Positions 15,816-23,859 of a stretch of 29,782 nucleotides of DNA are shown in pieces. The first letter of the stretch is position 1; each line of letters opens with the position of its first letter. This DNA is from an uncultured bacterium (GTDB lineage: Bacteria > Calescibacteriota > Calescibacteriia > Calescibacteriales > Calescibacteriaceae). Made by a program: the position numbers and the translations under genes. A model generated the notes under the pieces. The model was not told the DNA's origin, ran no database searches, and saw only the letters and a program-made list of their open reading frames with translations. The stretch lies in contig CALHPK010000032.1 in assembly GCA_938036315.1 (NCBI GenBank), positions 1 to 29,782 on the forward strand, in the 5' to 3' direction.

Positions 15816-18800
15816 ATGGGTAGTATAAAAAAGTTTGCTCTGAGCTTTGTTGTAATTATTTTTGTATTTTCCAGTTTATCATTCTCTTATGGGAGAATTG
15901 ATGAGAAGAAAACCACTGTAGGATGCTACTCTAAAAGCAAAGGTGGTGGTAGCTATTCTTCGGGAGGAGGTTCATCATCGGAGGAGCCCCCTCCACCTAT
16001 GGGATACATTCTTATTAAAGTTGTAAATGCAAGCTCGGGGTCTCCAGTTGAGAATGCTAACATATATGCAAATGGTGGGCTTGTCTCACAAACTTCTGAA
16101 AAGGGAACTGCATACTTTGGTGCATATCAAGGTGATTATTATATTAAGATAGAAGCGCCATCTTTTGCCCCAGCATTTATTAAATTGAGAAACCTCCAAG
16201 ATATAATGACATATGCTGAAGTAAAGCTAATACCAATAAGGTTCTCGACCGAATTCAATGCGGGAGTTGGAGGAAAAATTGAAGATAGAGCGGCAGGAGT
16301 AAGAATTACTCTGCCTTCAGGAGGGCTGAGAAAGGAAGGCACTGGTGAGATTTATACTGGTCAGGCAAAAATAGAGATAGCGTATCTTGATCCAGATAAT
16401 CCATTGCACCTTTTTGCTTTCCCTGGAAACTTTGTCGGTGTCCAGAATGGTCAGAAAGTTCTGCTTGAGACCTTCGGTCCCATTGAGGTTAGAATTAAAA
16501 CTCTGGCTGGGGAGAAGTTAAATCTCCCTCAGGGAGCTACAGCGGTTGTGGAATTCCCAGTTCCAGATAAATTTCAGACTCCAGACGTAGTCCCTTTATG
16601 GTCGTTTGATGAAAATACCGGGGAGTGGATTTATGAAGGGCTTCTTCACAAGGTAGAAAATGAGGATGGTAAACCAGTTCTTCGTGGATATGTGTCCCAT
16701 TTTTCCTGGTGGAATCCTGATGTGCCATCGGATACAACATGTGTGCAAGGAGTACTGAAAGATGATAAAGGAAATCCCATATCTGGAGCTCAGGTCTGGT
16801 CTGAAGGTATTGATTACCCTGGAGCTGATTTCACCGGTTATTCAAGGAAAACGGGACCAGACGGTAAGTTTTTTGTATTTGTCAGGAAGAATGGGAAAGC
16901 GAGAATTCTTGCATCAATAGGAGGTAAAAGAGCAGAAATCACTCAGGTTCAGACTAATAATTCATATCCATCGTATTACATTAAAGATTGGCTTTCGAAC
17001 CCATCTTCAGCGTGGAGTGTGTGCCCAAGTTTAGGGGATATACAACTTGGCGGTTATACAATTGTTCTGAGGTGGGGAAAGAAGAAATGCGATTTGGATC
17101 TTCATCTTACGGGACCAAAGCTTGATTCAGGAAGATTTCATATAGCAACAAAGCGGTGGGGGATGAGAAGTTTTTCACCGTATGCAGAGATTTTAGAAGA
17201 TGATAGTCCAGAGGTTTTAGTTTTAGATCCAAGCGTTCCGGGAGTATATCGCCTTTCAGTTTTTCACAACAATCCAAATAATACAGATTGTGGAAGGCTA
17301 CTTAAGGATTCAGGAGCAGTAGTTCAAGTTTGGAAGAATGGGCGTGTTATACATACAGAAAGTCCATATTCGCAAAGCTCGGGTAATCTGTGGAAAGTTT
17401 TAGATTTTATAGTTTGGTCGGGGGGAGTGACGATCTCAAGTATAAATGAGATAATAAGTGGGGATTATTGTTCTCCTTATCATCCAGATCCATCTTTTGA
17501 GTCACCTTGTCCCTCTAATGCTTCTCCGTTTTTACAGGTAGATGTTCCGGGTGAAGTTGAGTGTGCCTCTACCGTATTTATTCCTTATGTGGTATCTGAT
17601 CCTGATGGGGATCTTGTGGACATTAAAGTGTATGGCGGTATCGAAAGCGGGGAATTTTATGTGATGCAGGATTATATAAGATGGGAAACACCTGACTGTA
17701 GTGTTAATGATGCTGTTAGTTTGACGATTACTGCCGACGACAGAAGAGGGGGTAAAGTTTCTCAAAGTTATAATATTCCACTCTTACCAGCTCGGGGATA
17801 CAAAGTTTGGGAACGGGTGAGAAAGGATTCGGGCTTTGGTAAAGGTTTCTGTGATGTGGAGTTCGACTCTATGAAAAACTTCTATACTATACTGGAAAAA
17901 GAGTTTTCTGCTTCTGTGCTAAAGATAAGCCCATCTGGGAATATTCTGTTAAGTAGAGATTTTCCAAAAGTTGGTGATATAGCTATTGATTCAACTGGGG
18001 TTTATGTTGCTGTGGATTACGGGGTGGGAGTATACACTCTGGAGAAGTATTCTTTTGATCTTTCGAATCTCATTTGGCAGGTTAATATGACAACACAGGG
18101 CAGGAGATTTTTTAAGGTGCATGCTGATTCTAACGGGGTTTATGTCGTATTTTCGAACGGTTCAAATTATATCATAAGAAAATATTCCAGTAGTGGGAGT
18201 CTGTTATGGCAAGCAACGCAGCCGACCGGTGGGGTAGCTTCATACTGCTGGGATAGATGCATAGTAACCGATAGTAGCACTGGGGATATATACATCAGCA
18301 TCTACGAGGATGTGGCAGGTTTTAACGATTATTTCAAGATTTTCAGATATTCACAAAGTGGGAGTCTCCTTGCTTCTCGCTCAGGGACAGCCTGGGCTCC
18401 TGTTCAGATTTATCCGATGGGAGCTTCGGTGTATACCGTCAGAGCCTGGAAGGTTTTGGAAATACTTAATTCATCTTTGAATTTTATTCTGCATTCTGTA
18501 AATATATGTTCTGCTTTTGGATTATGCTCGCATGATATCGAGAGTATAAGAATAAAGGATGGATATATTTATGGTGGTGGAGGTAGAGCAATTTACAATT
18601 CTAATCTTGAGTGGATAAGAGATTCTTTAACTCTGTACAAATTTGATCTTGGACTTAACCTTGTATACAGCAAGGATATAGGTTTGAGTGTCGACTCTAA
18701 CTCTGAGTATTTGTGTAATATTGAGATATGTAAAGATTGTTCTACTACATATATGTATTTGGTCGGGACAGCTTATGATGTAGGGTGGACGCTCCGCTTC

Positions 18801-18830
18801 CCGTTCATATTAAAGTATAGATTGTACTAG
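15816..18830 (+). CDS. Large secreted multidomain beta-rich protein, unknown function
   Basis: The product is 1004 residues. A signal peptide (about 1-26) leads to a Gly/Ser/Pro linker (42-61). A carboxypeptidase-regulatory-like domain follows (62-125, YILIKVVNASSGSPVENANI). Next is a domain with 'GVRITLPSGGLR...LWSFDENTGEWIYEG...SHFSWWN' (about 150-300) that recalls FAM171/CILP-like ectodomains. A second regulatory-like domain spans 308-375. A DUF2135/YfaP-like sandwich with IVLRWGKKKCDLDLHLTGP (416-434) follows, then an Ig-like DPDGDLVDIKV unit. The C-terminal 350 residues have PQQ/beta-propeller-like repeats (SSGSLLWQ). Many Cys residues suggest disulfides. No Shine-Dalgarno precedes the ATG. 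Probably cell-surface or extracellular. Confidence 0.75.
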   Translation: MGSIKKFALSFVVIIFVFSSLSFSYGRIDEKKTTVGCYSKSKGGGSYSSGGGSSSEEPPPPMGYILIKVVNASSGSPVENANIYANGGLVSQTSEKGTAYFGAYQGDYYIKIEAPSFAPAFIKLRNLQDIMTYAEVKLIPIRFSTEFNAGVGGKIEDRAAGVRITLPSGGLRKEGTGEIYTGQAKIEIAYLDPDNPLHLFAFPGNFVGVQNGQKVLLETFGPIEVRIKTLAGEKLNLPQGATAVVEFPVPDKFQTPDVVPLWSFDENTGEWIYEGLLHKVENEDGKPVLRGYVSHFSWWNPDVPSDTTCVQGVLKDDKGNPISGAQVWSEGIDYPGADFTGYSRKTGPDGKFFVFVRKNGKARILASIGGKRAEITQVQTNNSYPSYYIKDWLSNPSSAWSVCPSLGDIQLGGYTIVLRWGKKKCDLDLHLTGPKLDSGRFHIATKRWGMRSFSPYAEILEDDSPEVLVLDPSVPGVYRLSVFHNNPNNTDCGRLLKDSGAVVQVWKNGRVIHTESPYSQSSGNLWKVLDFIVWSGGVTISSINEIISGDYCSPYHPDPSFESPCPSNASPFLQVDVPGEVECASTVFIPYVVSDPDGDLVDIKVYGGIESGEFYVMQDYIRWETPDCSVNDAVSLTITADDRRGGKVSQSYNIPLLPARGYKVWERVRKDSGFGKGFCDVEFDSMKNFYTILEKEFSASVLKISPSGNILLSRDFPKVGDIAIDSTGVYVAVDYGVGVYTLEKYSFDLSNLIWQVNMTTQGRRFFKVHADSNGVYVVFSNGSNYIIRKYSSSGSLLWQATQPTGGVASYCWDRCIVTDSSTGDIYISIYEDVAGFNDYFKIFRYSQSGSLLASRSGTAWAPVQIYPMGASVYTVRAWKVLEILNSSLNFILHSVNICSAFGLCSHDIESIRIKDGYIYGGGGRAIYNSNLEWIRDSLTLYKFDLGLNLVYSKDIGLSVDSNSEYLCNIEICKDCSTTYMYLVGTAYDVGWTLRFPFILKYRLY

Positions 18831-18926: not shown

Positions 18927-18933
18927 TTCTGTG

Positions 18934-20100
18934 ATGGGAAATTCTTTTGCAAGAGAAAGTTTTTTTGCAAGAAATGAAGAGCTTCATCGCTTACCATATC
19001 TTGGCAAAAAATTTGTTATCGCTACTGTGATACAGAAGGGAATATCAAAAGGTGAGGAAATAGAGAAATTAGAGTCTTTTGAAGAGTTTGCTGAACTTAT
19101 AAAAAATCTCGGCGGAGTAATATCAGGCAGGATTATTCAGAAAAGGGAGAGATTTGATCCTACGTTTTTCTTGGGGCCGGGCAAGTTGAAAGAGATGATT
19201 CAAGAGTATGAGTTTGACATACTTGCGGTGGATAGTATCCTCAAGCCAGTTCAGATAGTGAATCTTGAGAAGGAGTTGAAAAAGGAGGTATTAGATAGGG
19301 AGTATGTTATAATCAAGATATTCGAAGAAAGAGCAACATCAAGAGAAGGGAAGCTACAGGTCAAGCTAGCTGAACTCAAATATAAGCTGTCGAAATTATC
19401 CGGGATTGGTAAGGAGATGTCTCAGCTTGGCGGGATGTTGGGGACTCGTGGACCTGGGGAGACCAAGACCGAAGAGCTCAGAAGACACATAGTTAACCAA
19501 ATAAGAAGTATAGAAGCAGAGCTTGAATCGATTAAACATACAAGATTTCTGCACAGAGAAAGAAGGAAAAAAATGGGATTCGTAACATTTTCTCTTGTAG
19601 GGTATACAAATGTTGGAAAATCTACTCTGCTTAGGGCTCTTACTGGGGAGGACGTGTTGGTAAAAGATCAGCTATTTACAACTCTTGAGACTCGCGTAGG
19701 GCTTCTTAAAGATTCCAAATTTTCTGATAGCAATAAAATCCTCATCTCAGATACAGTTGGTTTTATAAGCAATCTCCCGCACTCTCTTGTATCTGCCTTT
19801 AAATCTACTTTGGAGGAGGTGATATTCTCAGATGCTTTGATTGTGGTTCTTGATGCAAGCCGAGATTGTGATAAACAGTTTTTGACGATAAAATCAGTCC
19901 TTGATGATATAAAAGTCCCACAGGTAAAACCAAGGATTGTGGTTTTTAACAAAATAGATAAAGCTCAGCAAAGAATATATCAACTGAGAAGGGACTATCA
20001 AGATGCTGTATTTGTATCTGCGCTCAAGGGGGTAGGTATTAGTGAATTAGTAGAAAAGATTATAGACTTAGCTCAGAAAATATGTACAGATGGGAAATAG
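18934..20100 (+). CDS. hflX: GTPase HflX
   Basis: HflX binds the 50S subunit and splits stalled or hibernating ribosomes. The 388-residue protein has the HflX N-domain: DPTFFLGPGKLKEM at 75-88 and the 'AVDSILKPVQIVNLE' strand. The Gly-rich hinge LGGMLGTRGPGETKTEELRR (165-184) follows. The G domain has G1 GYTNVGKST (223-231), the Phe-Thr-Thr switch FTTLETR (248-254), G3 DTVGF (273-277), G4 NKID (339-342) and G5 VSAL. I take ATG 18934; a GTG at 18931 would add one residue. The usual partners hfq and miaA are absent. The stop overlaps the next gene by 19 nt. Confidence 0.97.
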   Translation: MGNSFARESFFARNEELHRLPYLGKKFVIATVIQKGISKGEEIEKLESFEEFAELIKNLGGVISGRIIQKRERFDPTFFLGPGKLKEMIQEYEFDILAVDSILKPVQIVNLEKELKKEVLDREYVIIKIFEERATSREGKLQVKLAELKYKLSKLSGIGKEMSQLGGMLGTRGPGETKTEELRRHIVNQIRSIEAELESIKHTRFLHRERRKKMGFVTFSLVGYTNVGKSTLLRALTGEDVLVKDQLFTTLETRVGLLKDSKFSDSNKILISDTVGFISNLPHSLVSAFKSTLEEVIFSDALIVVLDASRDCDKQFLTIKSVLDDIKVPQVKPRIVVFNKIDKAQQRIYQLRRDYQDAVFVSALKGVGISELVEKIIDLAQKICTDGK

Positions 20101-20996
20101 TTGGAATAGCAAGCTTGAGCCTTTTGGTTCTTGTTTTAGGTGGACTTCCCTCAGAGGCTCAGCAGGCTGATGCTGAGAAATTTTTTCACCCATCTGAGGT
20201 TGAGGTTTTTTCTATCTCACTGACTTTTGATCTTGGAACTCCATCAGCTGAAATTTTCAGAAGGGCATCTTTTGAATTTGTCAACTCAGCTATAAATTTT
20301 TTACCATTGGATGATGGTGTCAAGATAGATATGAGCGGTGTTCTCCCTGATGAGTTATTATCAAGATTATCTATTCAGAGGAGAGTTCCGACAAAGGAAG
20401 GGAGGGTTCAGTATCAGCTTTCAGCGTATATAGATATGAGAAAATTTCTTTTATTTCTATCGTCCAGGCAAACTTCAATTCTTGTTGATATAAAAGGATG
20501 TGCGGAACTTACTCCATTTTTGAAAAAAGCGCTATTTGAGTTTTCCGCATCCGCAACATTTACTTGTGTACTGAAAAGAGAGGAGAAAAAAAGTCCTTTT
20601 TACCCGAACAGCGAGATTATCAAAGTAGATGGTATCGTGTTCTCCAATCAGAAAAGAGTACCTATATCCTTGAGAAAGGAACTCTTGTTCTTTTCGGTGC
20701 CACCTTACTATGAATTTTATGAGGAGTTGCGGGATATTTTATCAAAGAATTTTCTACCAAAATACAAAAAGAAAGAGTATGTAATTTCAGCGATGAAAGA
20801 CAAGTTTATTTCGTTTATGTCCTCCATATCTAAGAAGGCTTACTTTATAGCCGTGATTCCAGAGTATTACAAAAGGAAGAAGGATTTTGTGGAATCGAAA
20901 ATTGAATTCCTGTACTTTCCAGTTGTCAGAGACGAAGCTGTGGAAGATCTGATAATAAAGGAAGTAGAAAAAATTCAGGGTAATATAGTCAGATAG
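20082..20996 (+). CDS. Exported protein of unknown function
   Basis: This 304-residue protein begins inside the end of hflX in another frame. It has a clear signal peptide: positive start, hydrophobic core VGIASLSLLVLVLGG, and a likely cleavage after SEA near residue 26. The mature part alternates beta strands and charged helices and has just two Cys (about 158 and 175), which could pair. The C-terminus is Lys-rich. I recognise no family. The overlap suggests it is translated with hflX, though a ribosome factor and a periplasmic protein have no obvious link. The overlap makes ATG 20082 the only start that keeps the signal peptide. Confidence 0.75.
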   Translation: MYRWEIVGIASLSLLVLVLGGLPSEAQQADAEKFFHPSEVEVFSISLTFDLGTPSAEIFRRASFEFVNSAINFLPLDDGVKIDMSGVLPDELLSRLSIQRRVPTKEGRVQYQLSAYIDMRKFLLFLSSRQTSILVDIKGCAELTPFLKKALFEFSASATFTCVLKREEKKSPFYPNSEIIKVDGIVFSNQKRVPISLRKELLFFSVPPYYEFYEELRDILSKNFLPKYKKKEYVISAMKDKFISFMSSISKKAYFIAVIPEYYKRKKDFVESKIEFLYFPVVRDEAVEDLIIKEVEKIQGNIVR

Positions 20997-21014: not shown

Positions 21015-22517
21015 TTACTTGTAGAGAGTTTCATCTAGTGAGAGATCTGCTATAGCGATGGTGGATATATAGTTATTTTCCATCTCTCCATTCTTGGTGA
21101 GTTTTTTTGACATTTCAACTGCTATTTTCCTCTGTTCTTCGATGGGCAAGTTTTTTTCGATATCAAAGTGCCAAGGTCCTAGTACTATAAAGCCCCCAGA
21201 TTTGAAGTTTGGGATCCCCTGCAGGTTCATCCTATCAAGCGGAGGGTTACCTATGTAGTTAATATCTCTTTTTGCTCGTTTGTCTAATCCTGTGATTGCT
21301 GTTTGCCCGTCGAATGAGTTATCGAAAAGATTTCCAACCATCATAGGGTTCACGTTGTATCGGATATTTTTAGTCCATTTGATCTCTATCTTTTGAAATT
21401 CACATTTTACACCTTCTCCTCTGTAAAACAGAGCTTGATGGGGATTTGTACAGCCGATATAGTACTCTTTTTGGATGCTTCCCATAACAGATGCGAGCCA
21501 TTCTTCTGGTTGCCAGTATCCTAGTCCTCCCTGTGAAGCCCACAGTCCTGAGTTTGCATCAGGCTGAAGAAGAACGTCACAACCTTTTTCATCCAGAACC
21601 TTTATGTATTCAGGAACAAAAGCATCAAGACTTATAGCTATGCATACATCAATTTCTGTTTGCGGGATTCTATAGACGCTGAGTTCTTCATAACTTCCAG
21701 ATGAAAACATAAGATCATTTTTTTCAGTTGGAACTAAATTCACTTTTTTGGTTGTATGTACTATTTCCCCTTTGGGTGAGAAAATGAAGCAGGTGTTCCA
21801 GATATCGTACGTTACTGATTCATAGTAGTATGTATTATCCTCGACCCATTCATCTACCAGAATTTTCATATTGTCATCTGGATTTTTCTTTTCTATATGT
21901 GGGTATGGGGAGTTCTGGCAGGATACAACGAAAACTTCGTACTCCCTTGCAAGGCGTGAAAAAGTATTGTAAAATACTCTCCATAAGGAATCAGTGAGCG
22001 ATAAGAATAATTGTCTTGCAGGCGCGATGTTTGGAAATTTTTCCTCATAGTATTCCATGGGAATTGAAAGAGCAGTAAAGAGATTGACTTCAGCTGCTAG
22101 AAGATTTGGACTTTTTCTTGCAGATTCCCCCCTTGATCCGAAAAATACTAAGGGTAATCCTGCGTGTTCTTCAAAAACAACGATGTTCTGATATTCTTTT
22201 GATAAATAAGGTTTTATAATTTCCATAAATTTTCTAAACGATTCATAGTAACTTTTTTCTGAGGTTATATCATCTGGGAAGTTGAATTTGTGACCGACTG
22301 CGAAAAATCTTGCGGTTTTACTTCTGTCAAGTCCACTGTAAAGTTCTGCAGTTATTACGTATCTATCGTTATTTTCGAATTTCCCTGTTTTTGTGAATGA
22401 TGGTTTTTCTTCTTTTTTCCCGCAGAATGTTATAAGAAGGAGTAGGAAGAACGGTAGCATTCCCTTACTTTTCTTGTTCTTTTTCTTTTTATCATCCCTT
22501 GCTGATTGATCTTTCAT
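21015..22517 (-). CDS. Nitrilase-like (carbon-nitrogen hydrolase fold) lipoprotein, catalytic Cys replaced by Ser
   Basis: This 500-residue protein has a Lys-rich start, a hydrophobic run and Cys32 followed by GKKEEK, which suggests a lipoprotein although Phe precedes the Cys. The body has carbon-nitrogen hydrolase landmarks. NIVVFEEHAG gives the Glu site (117), VHTTKKVNLVPTE the Lys site (258), and IAISLDAFVPEYIKVLDEKGCDVLL aligns with the family's 'v.ICyD..fPE......Ga..l'. Ser296, codon AGT, is where the nucleophilic Cys should be. It may be inactive, altered or a binding protein. AAAAGGAAAT precedes the ATG. It follows lpxC by 51 nt on the same strand and ends 18 bp from the convergent exported-protein gene. 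Confidence 0.7.
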   Translation of the reverse strand: MKDQSARDDKKKKNKKSKGMLPFFLLLLITFCGKKEEKPSFTKTGKFENNDRYVITAELYSGLDRSKTARFFAVGHKFNFPDDITSEKSYYESFRKFMEIIKPYLSKEYQNIVVFEEHAGLPLVFFGSRGESARKSPNLLAAEVNLFTALSIPMEYYEEKFPNIAPARQLFLSLTDSLWRVFYNTFSRLAREYEVFVVSCQNSPYPHIEKKNPDDNMKILVDEWVEDNTYYYESVTYDIWNTCFIFSPKGEIVHTTKKVNLVPTEKNDLMFSSGSYEELSVYRIPQTEIDVCIAISLDAFVPEYIKVLDEKGCDVLLQPDANSGLWASQGGLGYWQPEEWLASVMGSIQKEYYIGCTNPHQALFYRGEGVKCEFQKIEIKWTKNIRYNVNPMMVGNLFDNSFDGQTAITGLDKRAKRDINYIGNPPLDRMNLQGIPNFKSGGFIVLGPWHFDIEKNLPIEEQRKIAVEMSKKLTKNGEMENNYISTIAIADLSLDETLYK

Positions 22518-22568: not shown

Positions 22569-23402
22569 CTATAAAATTTCATATTTTAGAACATTTAGCA
22601 TTTTTCTTGATAGTTTGTGAGAGGAGTTGTATAGGAAAAATTTTCCTAATATTCTGAGGTTTAGTACGAATATATCTCCGAGGAAGTCAAGTATTTTGTG
22701 CCTTGCTCTTTCGTTGTCAAATCTGAGTTCTGTATTCAGGGGGGTATCTCCTCTAAAAACTATTGCTGAATCTTCATTACCTCCTTTGAATAATCCTGCT
22801 TCTAAAGCGTTTTTGAGTTCATCCTCATATATGAATGTTCTGGCAATAGCTATTTCATCAGCATATGACATATCTTGGGTGAATGTGAATTCTTCTTCTT
22901 TGTTGGTCGGGGATCTGTAAACTGCTGTTACTATGAACTCACCCGAAGGCTCAGCGACAATATATCCTCTTTCATCTTCTACCTTTACTTTATCTTTTAT
23001 GATGCAGTATTTTCTCAGTGAGTTTTGCGGTTCTACTCCAATCTGGAGAAGCCTTTCAGAAAATATCAGAGCAGAACCATCAAAAAAAGGAACTTCACTT
23101 CCAGATATTTCAACAATAGCATTATCCACACCGAGTCCCCAGAAAGCGGATAAAAGATGCTCAATATACATTATATCTCCCGATGAGGTTTTTAGGGTTA
23201 AGTTATGAAATCCTGGATATGTAGTTGAGACAGAAAGTTTTATGTATTCTCCATTAGATTTGAAGATTATCCCTGAGTCTCCCTGTGTAGGTTTGACTCT
23301 TATGGTTGATATCTGACCAGACAATAGCCCCAATCCGAAGAATTCGAACTCCTGAGATAAGGTGTGCTGGACTCCAAAAAATAGATCTTTTTCATCTACC
23401 AT
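22569..23402 (-). CDS. lpxC: UDP-3-O-acyl-N-acetylglucosamine deacetylase
   Basis: LpxC catalyses the committed step of lipid A synthesis, which shows the cell has an LPS-type outer membrane. In the 277-residue product the catalytic Glu81 and zinc ligand His82 are in IEHLLSAFWGLGVDNA. EVPFFDGSA follows at 103-111, IARTF at 186-190, zinc ligands His235 and Asp239 in HKILDFLGD, and His262 in SSHKL. The N-terminal 'GLHSG' motif reads GLLSG here, so its His is Leu. I choose ATG 23402 because it gives the usual LpxC N-terminus and has a TAAATT box 7 nt upstream. A TTG at 23426 would add 8 residues. lpxC leads the two-gene unit with the nitrilase-like gene. Confidence 0.92.
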   Translation of the reverse strand: MVDEKDLFFGVQHTLSQEFEFFGLGLLSGQISTIRVKPTQGDSGIIFKSNGEYIKLSVSTTYPGFHNLTLKTSSGDIMYIEHLLSAFWGLGVDNAIVEISGSEVPFFDGSALIFSERLLQIGVEPQNSLRKYCIIKDKVKVEDERGYIVAEPSGEFIVTAVYRSPTNKEEEFTFTQDMSYADEIAIARTFIYEDELKNALEAGLFKGGNEDSAIVFRGDTPLNTELRFDNERARHKILDFLGDIFVLNLRILGKFFLYNSSHKLSRKMLNVLKYEIL

Positions 23403-23409
23403 CTGAGAA

Positions 23410-23415
23410 AATTTA
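23410..23415 (-). promoter_or_regulatory. TAAATT box 7 nt before the lpxC start
   Basis: On the minus strand TAAATT precedes ATG 23402 by 7 nt and there is no Shine-Dalgarno. Possible -10 element of a leaderless lpxC mRNA. Confidence 0.35.
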
Positions 23416-23859
23416 ACACTGTACAATTTAATTGGATTACTTACAGTGAAGATTTACAGAGAATAGGAGGATACTATTGAAATTTGCTTGCATATTTTGT
23501 TTACCTATTTAGGAGTTTAAGGGCAGAAAGGGAGGAGACTTATTTCTGAAATTTGCTGTGTCGGGATTGAAAGTTTGAAAAGCTTCAATAAAATTAGCCA
23601 TTTCATAAGACGTAACTTCTGCTTATTTTTATAGATTGAAATGCTCTTTTGCTTTGTGATAAAAAGAGTTTAAATTTAGATTATTATCACTGAAGGTGGC
23701 AACTTGGATTACATTATTATATATATAACATTTAAAGATACAGAATGAATAAAAGAAGAGAAAAAAGAGGGTAAGATAGCAAATTTGCTTAATGTTTTAC
23801 GATTATATTTATTTAGATAATTATTGAATAGGTGCGATATAGATAGGCGCGATATAGAA
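23416..23859. other. Divergent intergenic region between lpxC and the giant lipoprotein gene
   Basis: About 440 bp with no confident gene. It has two degenerate copies of a segment in which a strong Shine-Dalgarno-like AGGAGG (23465-23470) or GGAGGAG (23531-23537) precedes GAAATTTGCT. It also has a long AT run (23710-23740) and a 15-bp tandem duplication ending at 23857. It should contain promoters for both flanking genes. Confidence 0.55.
23828..23857. repeat. 15-bp tandem duplication just before a start codon
   Basis: ATAGGTGCGATATAG (23828-23842) is followed directly by ATAGGCGCGATATAG (23843-23857), one mismatch. The ATG of the giant lipoprotein is 3 nt further on. Confidence 0.92.

Follow-up and report, generated by a model that had tools for sequence, protein, structure and literature searches.

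A minus-strand gene at positions 22517 to 21015 of the window (the whole 29,782-nucleotide stretch of DNA analysed here) encodes an exported protein, hereafter P0001, that has the nitrilase fold and keeps the Glu and Lys of the nitrilase site but carries a serine, Ser296, at the position of the nucleophilic cysteine. Descriptions of the nitrilase superfamily present its members as thiol enzymes. We give roughly even chances to P0001 being a membrane-tethered nitrilase-fold enzyme of the cell envelope in which Ser296 replaces Cys as the nucleophile. The broader proposition, that P0001 represents a clade of natural Ser-nucleophile nitrilase-fold enzymes, derived once from Cys ancestors, anchored in the envelope and found in several phyla, falls just short of even in our estimate. 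If true, the nitrilase fold can run on Ser in a conserved, old clade with a site that is otherwise intact, and the Ser could reflect adaptation to conditions beyond the cytoplasm; natural homologues with Cys and with Ser could then be compared in pairs as a direct test of what the nucleophile determines. Taxonomy places the source organism in the Candidatus Calescibacterium lineage, alongside four relatives in its family (Ca. Calescibacterium nevadense OTU 1, Bacterium HR19, MAG BF2.bins.44 and Ca. Calescibacterium sp. SKYB43), and the group is of hot-spring origin and thought to be Gram-negative (PMC4791363).

The reading frame is genuine, spanning 21015..22517 (minus strand, stop included) and coding for 500 amino acids. 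Its sole Pfam match is CN_hydrolase (PF00795), just over the cut-off (24.4 bits vs 23.2, E=2e-5), and profile-profile comparison matched P0001 to nitrilases at E=1e-8, using five canonical Cys enzymes that included NadE and Lnt from the same genome. An AlphaFold2 model built from a five-row alignment had a mean pLDDT of 54 and a pTM of 0.64, with much of the core at 60–89. When this model was compared with solved structures (VIA aligner; Foldseek was also run), all 50 of the matches listed had the nitrilase fold, the best being the C-N hydrolase 6mg6 (VIA Z 14.7 over 217 residues). P0001 thus has the nitrilase fold that a sequence-only reading had recognised, predicted to be alpha-beta-beta-alpha in a model of moderate confidence, in a domain covering about residues 68–495 (21033..22316, minus strand) and containing family-specific insertions. 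It is a homologue of the nitrilase superfamily by descent and by fold, with the Glu and Lys of the triad and without the defining thiol. Also shared with PF00795 proteins are a candidate second Glu of the site and an elbow of the form I-[C/S]-x-D; unlike them, P0001 has Ser rather than Cys, is exported and exceeds a minimal nitrilase by about 200 residues.

Re-reading the sequence confirmed the residues first proposed for the site, all on the minus strand: Glu117 (GAA, 22167..22169), Lys258 (AAA, 21744..21746) and Ser296 (AGT, 21630..21632) fall on the nitrilase columns for the general-base Glu, the Lys and the Cys, respectively. Within homologues, Glu117 and Lys258 are each conserved in 22/22 Ser-type rows, and the profile-profile alignment places Lys258 on the catalytic Lys and Ser296 on the nitrilase Cys. 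Cys292 (TGC, 21642..21644), four residues before Ser296 and named earlier as a candidate whose placement at the elbow would overturn the assignment, is rejected as the nucleophile, as the profile alignment sets it against a Gly and it is present in Calescibacterium proteins only. We identified a candidate fourth residue that had previously gone unmentioned, Glu265 (21723..21725), which lies near the place of the second Glu in nitrilase-superfamily sites; it is invariant within the source phylum and present in 21/22 of the clade's Ser-type rows. In total, 14 reference positions are invariant in the 22 Ser-type rows (R70, E117, G250, K258, S296, A299, Q318, A321, W326, D403, Q405, G442, W449 and D491), although the invariance of S296 is partly definitional in rows chosen as Ser-type, whereas the homologue searches themselves were unselected for that residue. 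Seven of these invariants (R70, Q318, W326, D403, Q405, W449 and D491) are unlike the nitrilase superfamily and particular to the P0001 family.

Across the clade (n=25), the nucleophile column reads 23 Ser, 2 Gly and 0 Cys. In both Gly members, L046 and L047, the Lys is missing too, and in L047 the Glu as well, so the site is kept or lost as a whole; these two proteins look like true losses of the site. A whole-genome search found the Ser-type gene in 5/5 genomes of the source phylum, in 1/2 genomes of the phylum of G048 and in 2/2 of the phylum of G155. In the phylum of G377, which may be the myxobacteria judging from a truncated member from Myxococcaceae (L031), 21/377 genomes carry any relative, Ser-type or Cys-type, and in that of G023 the Ser type was seen in 2 genomes, among the best 20 of 90 matches. 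The Ser clade therefore spans about five bacterial phyla, the source phylum and about four others. Because Ser296 is present in all five phylum genomes and in distant homologues, it is neither a sequencing error nor a change confined to one genome. Among the Ser codons read, 14 were AGY and 8 TCN, with at least 5 switches between the two classes on the tree, meaning that Ser was retained through codon changes requiring either two steps or a double substitution. For the closest pair, dN/dS is about 0.1. Three further searches came back empty: a first contig scan of genomes with a single protein query and a plasmid search with P0001 gave no match, and a PHROGs search gave nothing significant. 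One Ser-type gene (L043/L056, on G751:C15) is seemingly split in two frames, a possible frameshift or assembly error.

Sister proteins with Cys in the nucleophile column also exist. These comprise L045, the pair L070/L071 and mostly unexported groups (L049–L055, L060, L065–L087), the latter shorter and occurring in the G377 and G023 phyla. They share with P0001 the elbow (reading I[CS]LDAF in the closest of them; IAICLDAF in L070 vs IAISLDAF in P0001), the Glu and Lys and a related FxGQ[ST] motif, and differ from it in having a Cys nucleophile and, except for the exported L070 and L071, mostly no signal peptide. L045 has Cys in the nucleophile column, aligns over nearly its full length and lacks a signal peptide. 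In a 60-row tree, Ser and Gly rows formed one group, at whose base stood L045 (82/96). Strict monophyly of the Ser and Gly rows was not established, given this Cys protein at their base, and the place of L045 is unsure because its branch is long; a single Ser and Gly clade was not rejected (AU test, p=0.32). On the simplest reading of these sequences, one Cys-to-Ser change would have been followed by two losses to Gly, with the placement of L045 uncertain. Since some genomes (G744, G751 and G753) have both a Ser-type and a Cys-type gene, neither type simply stands in for the other. In the G023 phylum 90/111 genomes have a match, and the Cys-type, mostly unexported relative is common there (e.g. 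L065–L087); L070, the sole member from that phylum tested, had no NCBIfam name above cut-off.

Export of P0001, proposed earlier, was borne out by its signal peptide (residues 1–31, 22425..22517, minus strand; a Lys-rich n-region followed by the hydrophobic LPFFLLLLITF) and by export signals in homologues. The proposed lipid anchor is likely for the family and less certain for P0001 itself: Cys32, the candidate lipidated residue (22422..22424, minus strand), is invariant in a six-row alignment and most members have canonical lipoboxes (e.g. LSC, SSC, GAC, VGC), whereas the box of P0001 is LITF-C, with an atypical Phe at -1. Signal peptides occur throughout the Ser-type proteins, in most cases with a Cys in a lipobox, though the export of L068 is in doubt. 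A strict rule by which Ser would mean exported and Cys cytosolic was rejected, both for this reason and because L070 and L071 are Cys-type proteins with signal peptides. Many Ser-type proteins of the G377 phylum have an extra C-terminal domain of roughly 350–400 residues with Asp-box-like motifs, for which there was no significant Pfam match; L068 and L069 have a C-terminal hydrophobic segment in its place.

The retained Glu-Lys-Glu and Ser suggest, at the level of sequence, acyl-enzyme chemistry with an oxygen nucleophile. From the observed fold, residue columns, conservation, clade distribution and export signals we infer a catalytic cycle, together with an orientation in the envelope and a class of substrate. 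Ser296, activated by Glu117 and Lys258, would attack the amide or ester carbonyl of an envelope or periplasmic compound, forming an oxygen-ester acyl-enzyme that Glu265 would then resolve together with water (or with an acceptor amine). What favours such an enzyme is, first, that Ser296 sits on the Cys column in homologues and profiles alike and that Glu, Lys and Ser are among the 14 invariants; second, the clade-wide Ser without a single Cys, the codon switches, the low dN/dS and the presence of the gene throughout the source phylum; and third, chemical precedent. In E. coli Lnt C387S an oxygen-ester acyl intermediate forms, though the acyl group is not passed on (PMC6828757), so a Ser site can work at least half-way. 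Natural E-K-S sites are also found in cephalopod vanin/pantetheinase/symplectin homologues, in which Ser arose several times according to the authors (PMC5541922); like P0001, these proteins combine a nucleophile-column Ser with the retained Glu and Lys, and are known from sequence, but they are an animal family. Weighing against a Ser enzyme, engineered Cys-to-Ser changes usually cripple enzymes of this fold, as in Lnt C387S and in MtCPA C158S, where binding is kept and reactivity strongly diminished (PMC4812014). A site that served to bind a ligand should be just as conserved, the gene has no conserved neighbour, and the low mean pLDDT of the model further weakens the case.

The sequence-only reading had left a pseudoenzyme, a Ser-nucleophile enzyme and a binding protein side by side; conservation of the Glu, Lys, Glu and Ser opposes the decaying pseudoenzyme and does not separate catalysis from binding. 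We rank a Ser enzyme somewhat above a non-catalytic binding protein or sensor, which we regard as a serious though rather doubtful contender. Such a protein would bind an amide-bearing ligand, its Ser keeping the pocket and abolishing turnover, and the second C-terminal domain of many members would be an output or binding platform. Cys-to-Ser mutants with the nitrilase fold offer parallels: MtCPA C158S holds its ligand without turnover (PMC4812014), and PDB titles describe yeast Nit2 C169S with ligand and an N-terminal amidase C187S. Export and, in many members, the large C-terminal domain with its Asp-box-like motifs are likewise consistent with binding. However, Glu, Lys and the second Glu are retained in nearly every member across about five phyla, and both members that lack Ser also lack Lys. 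That P0001 is instead a decaying pseudoenzyme or scaffold with a functionless site we consider very improbable: the weak Pfam score and the truly degenerate sites of L046 and L047 would suit it, but the site residues are among the family's most conserved, purifying selection is strong and all five phylum genomes have the gene. A literature search of limited reach found no paper on nitrilase pseudoenzymes.

As noted from the sequence, the gene follows lpxC (22569..23426, minus strand; PF03331, E=3e-66) on the same strand, the end of lpxC at 22569 lying 51 nt from the gene start. The suggested link to lpxC or lipid A found no support in a comparison with relatives, as lpxC was absent from the flanks of 24 homologous loci (at most about 6 kb, and less where a contig ended). 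The adjacency is therefore local to the source genome, and P0001 as an lpxC operon partner was rejected. The same flanks held no recurrent neighbour common to distant lineages, so the gene behaves as an orphan and its neighbourhood gives no pointer to a pathway. Lnt has the same fold with its site located in the envelope (PMC5500888), and in both Lnt and P0001 a Glu lies 7–8 residues after the Lys; unlike P0001, Lnt has a polytopic membrane domain and Cys rather than Ser. P0001 has one N-terminal hydrophobic segment only and no match to the NCBIfam equivalog TIGR00546, while another gene of the same genome (L114; E=4e-85 to TIGR00546) encodes a canonical Lnt that has membrane helices and Cys. 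The two are thus distinct, as originally proposed, and replacement of Lnt by P0001 was rejected. A role in the lipid A or lipoprotein pathway, as lpxC partner or Lnt-like acyltransferase, is accordingly very improbable: the 51-nt spacing and the shared fold and envelope site speak for it, against which stand the missing lpxC in all relatives examined, the canonical Lnt and the lack of an Lnt-like membrane-helix domain. This genome's Lnt and NadE both keep Cys.

Three plus-strand reading frames lie on the other side of the gene. The nearest, at 20082–20996, is convergent with it; the N-terminus of its product resembles a signal sequence, and Pfam gave no match. The others encode a 1004-amino acid exported-looking protein with a carboxypeptidase-regulatory-like domain (15816–18830) and an HflX-type GTPase (18931–20100).
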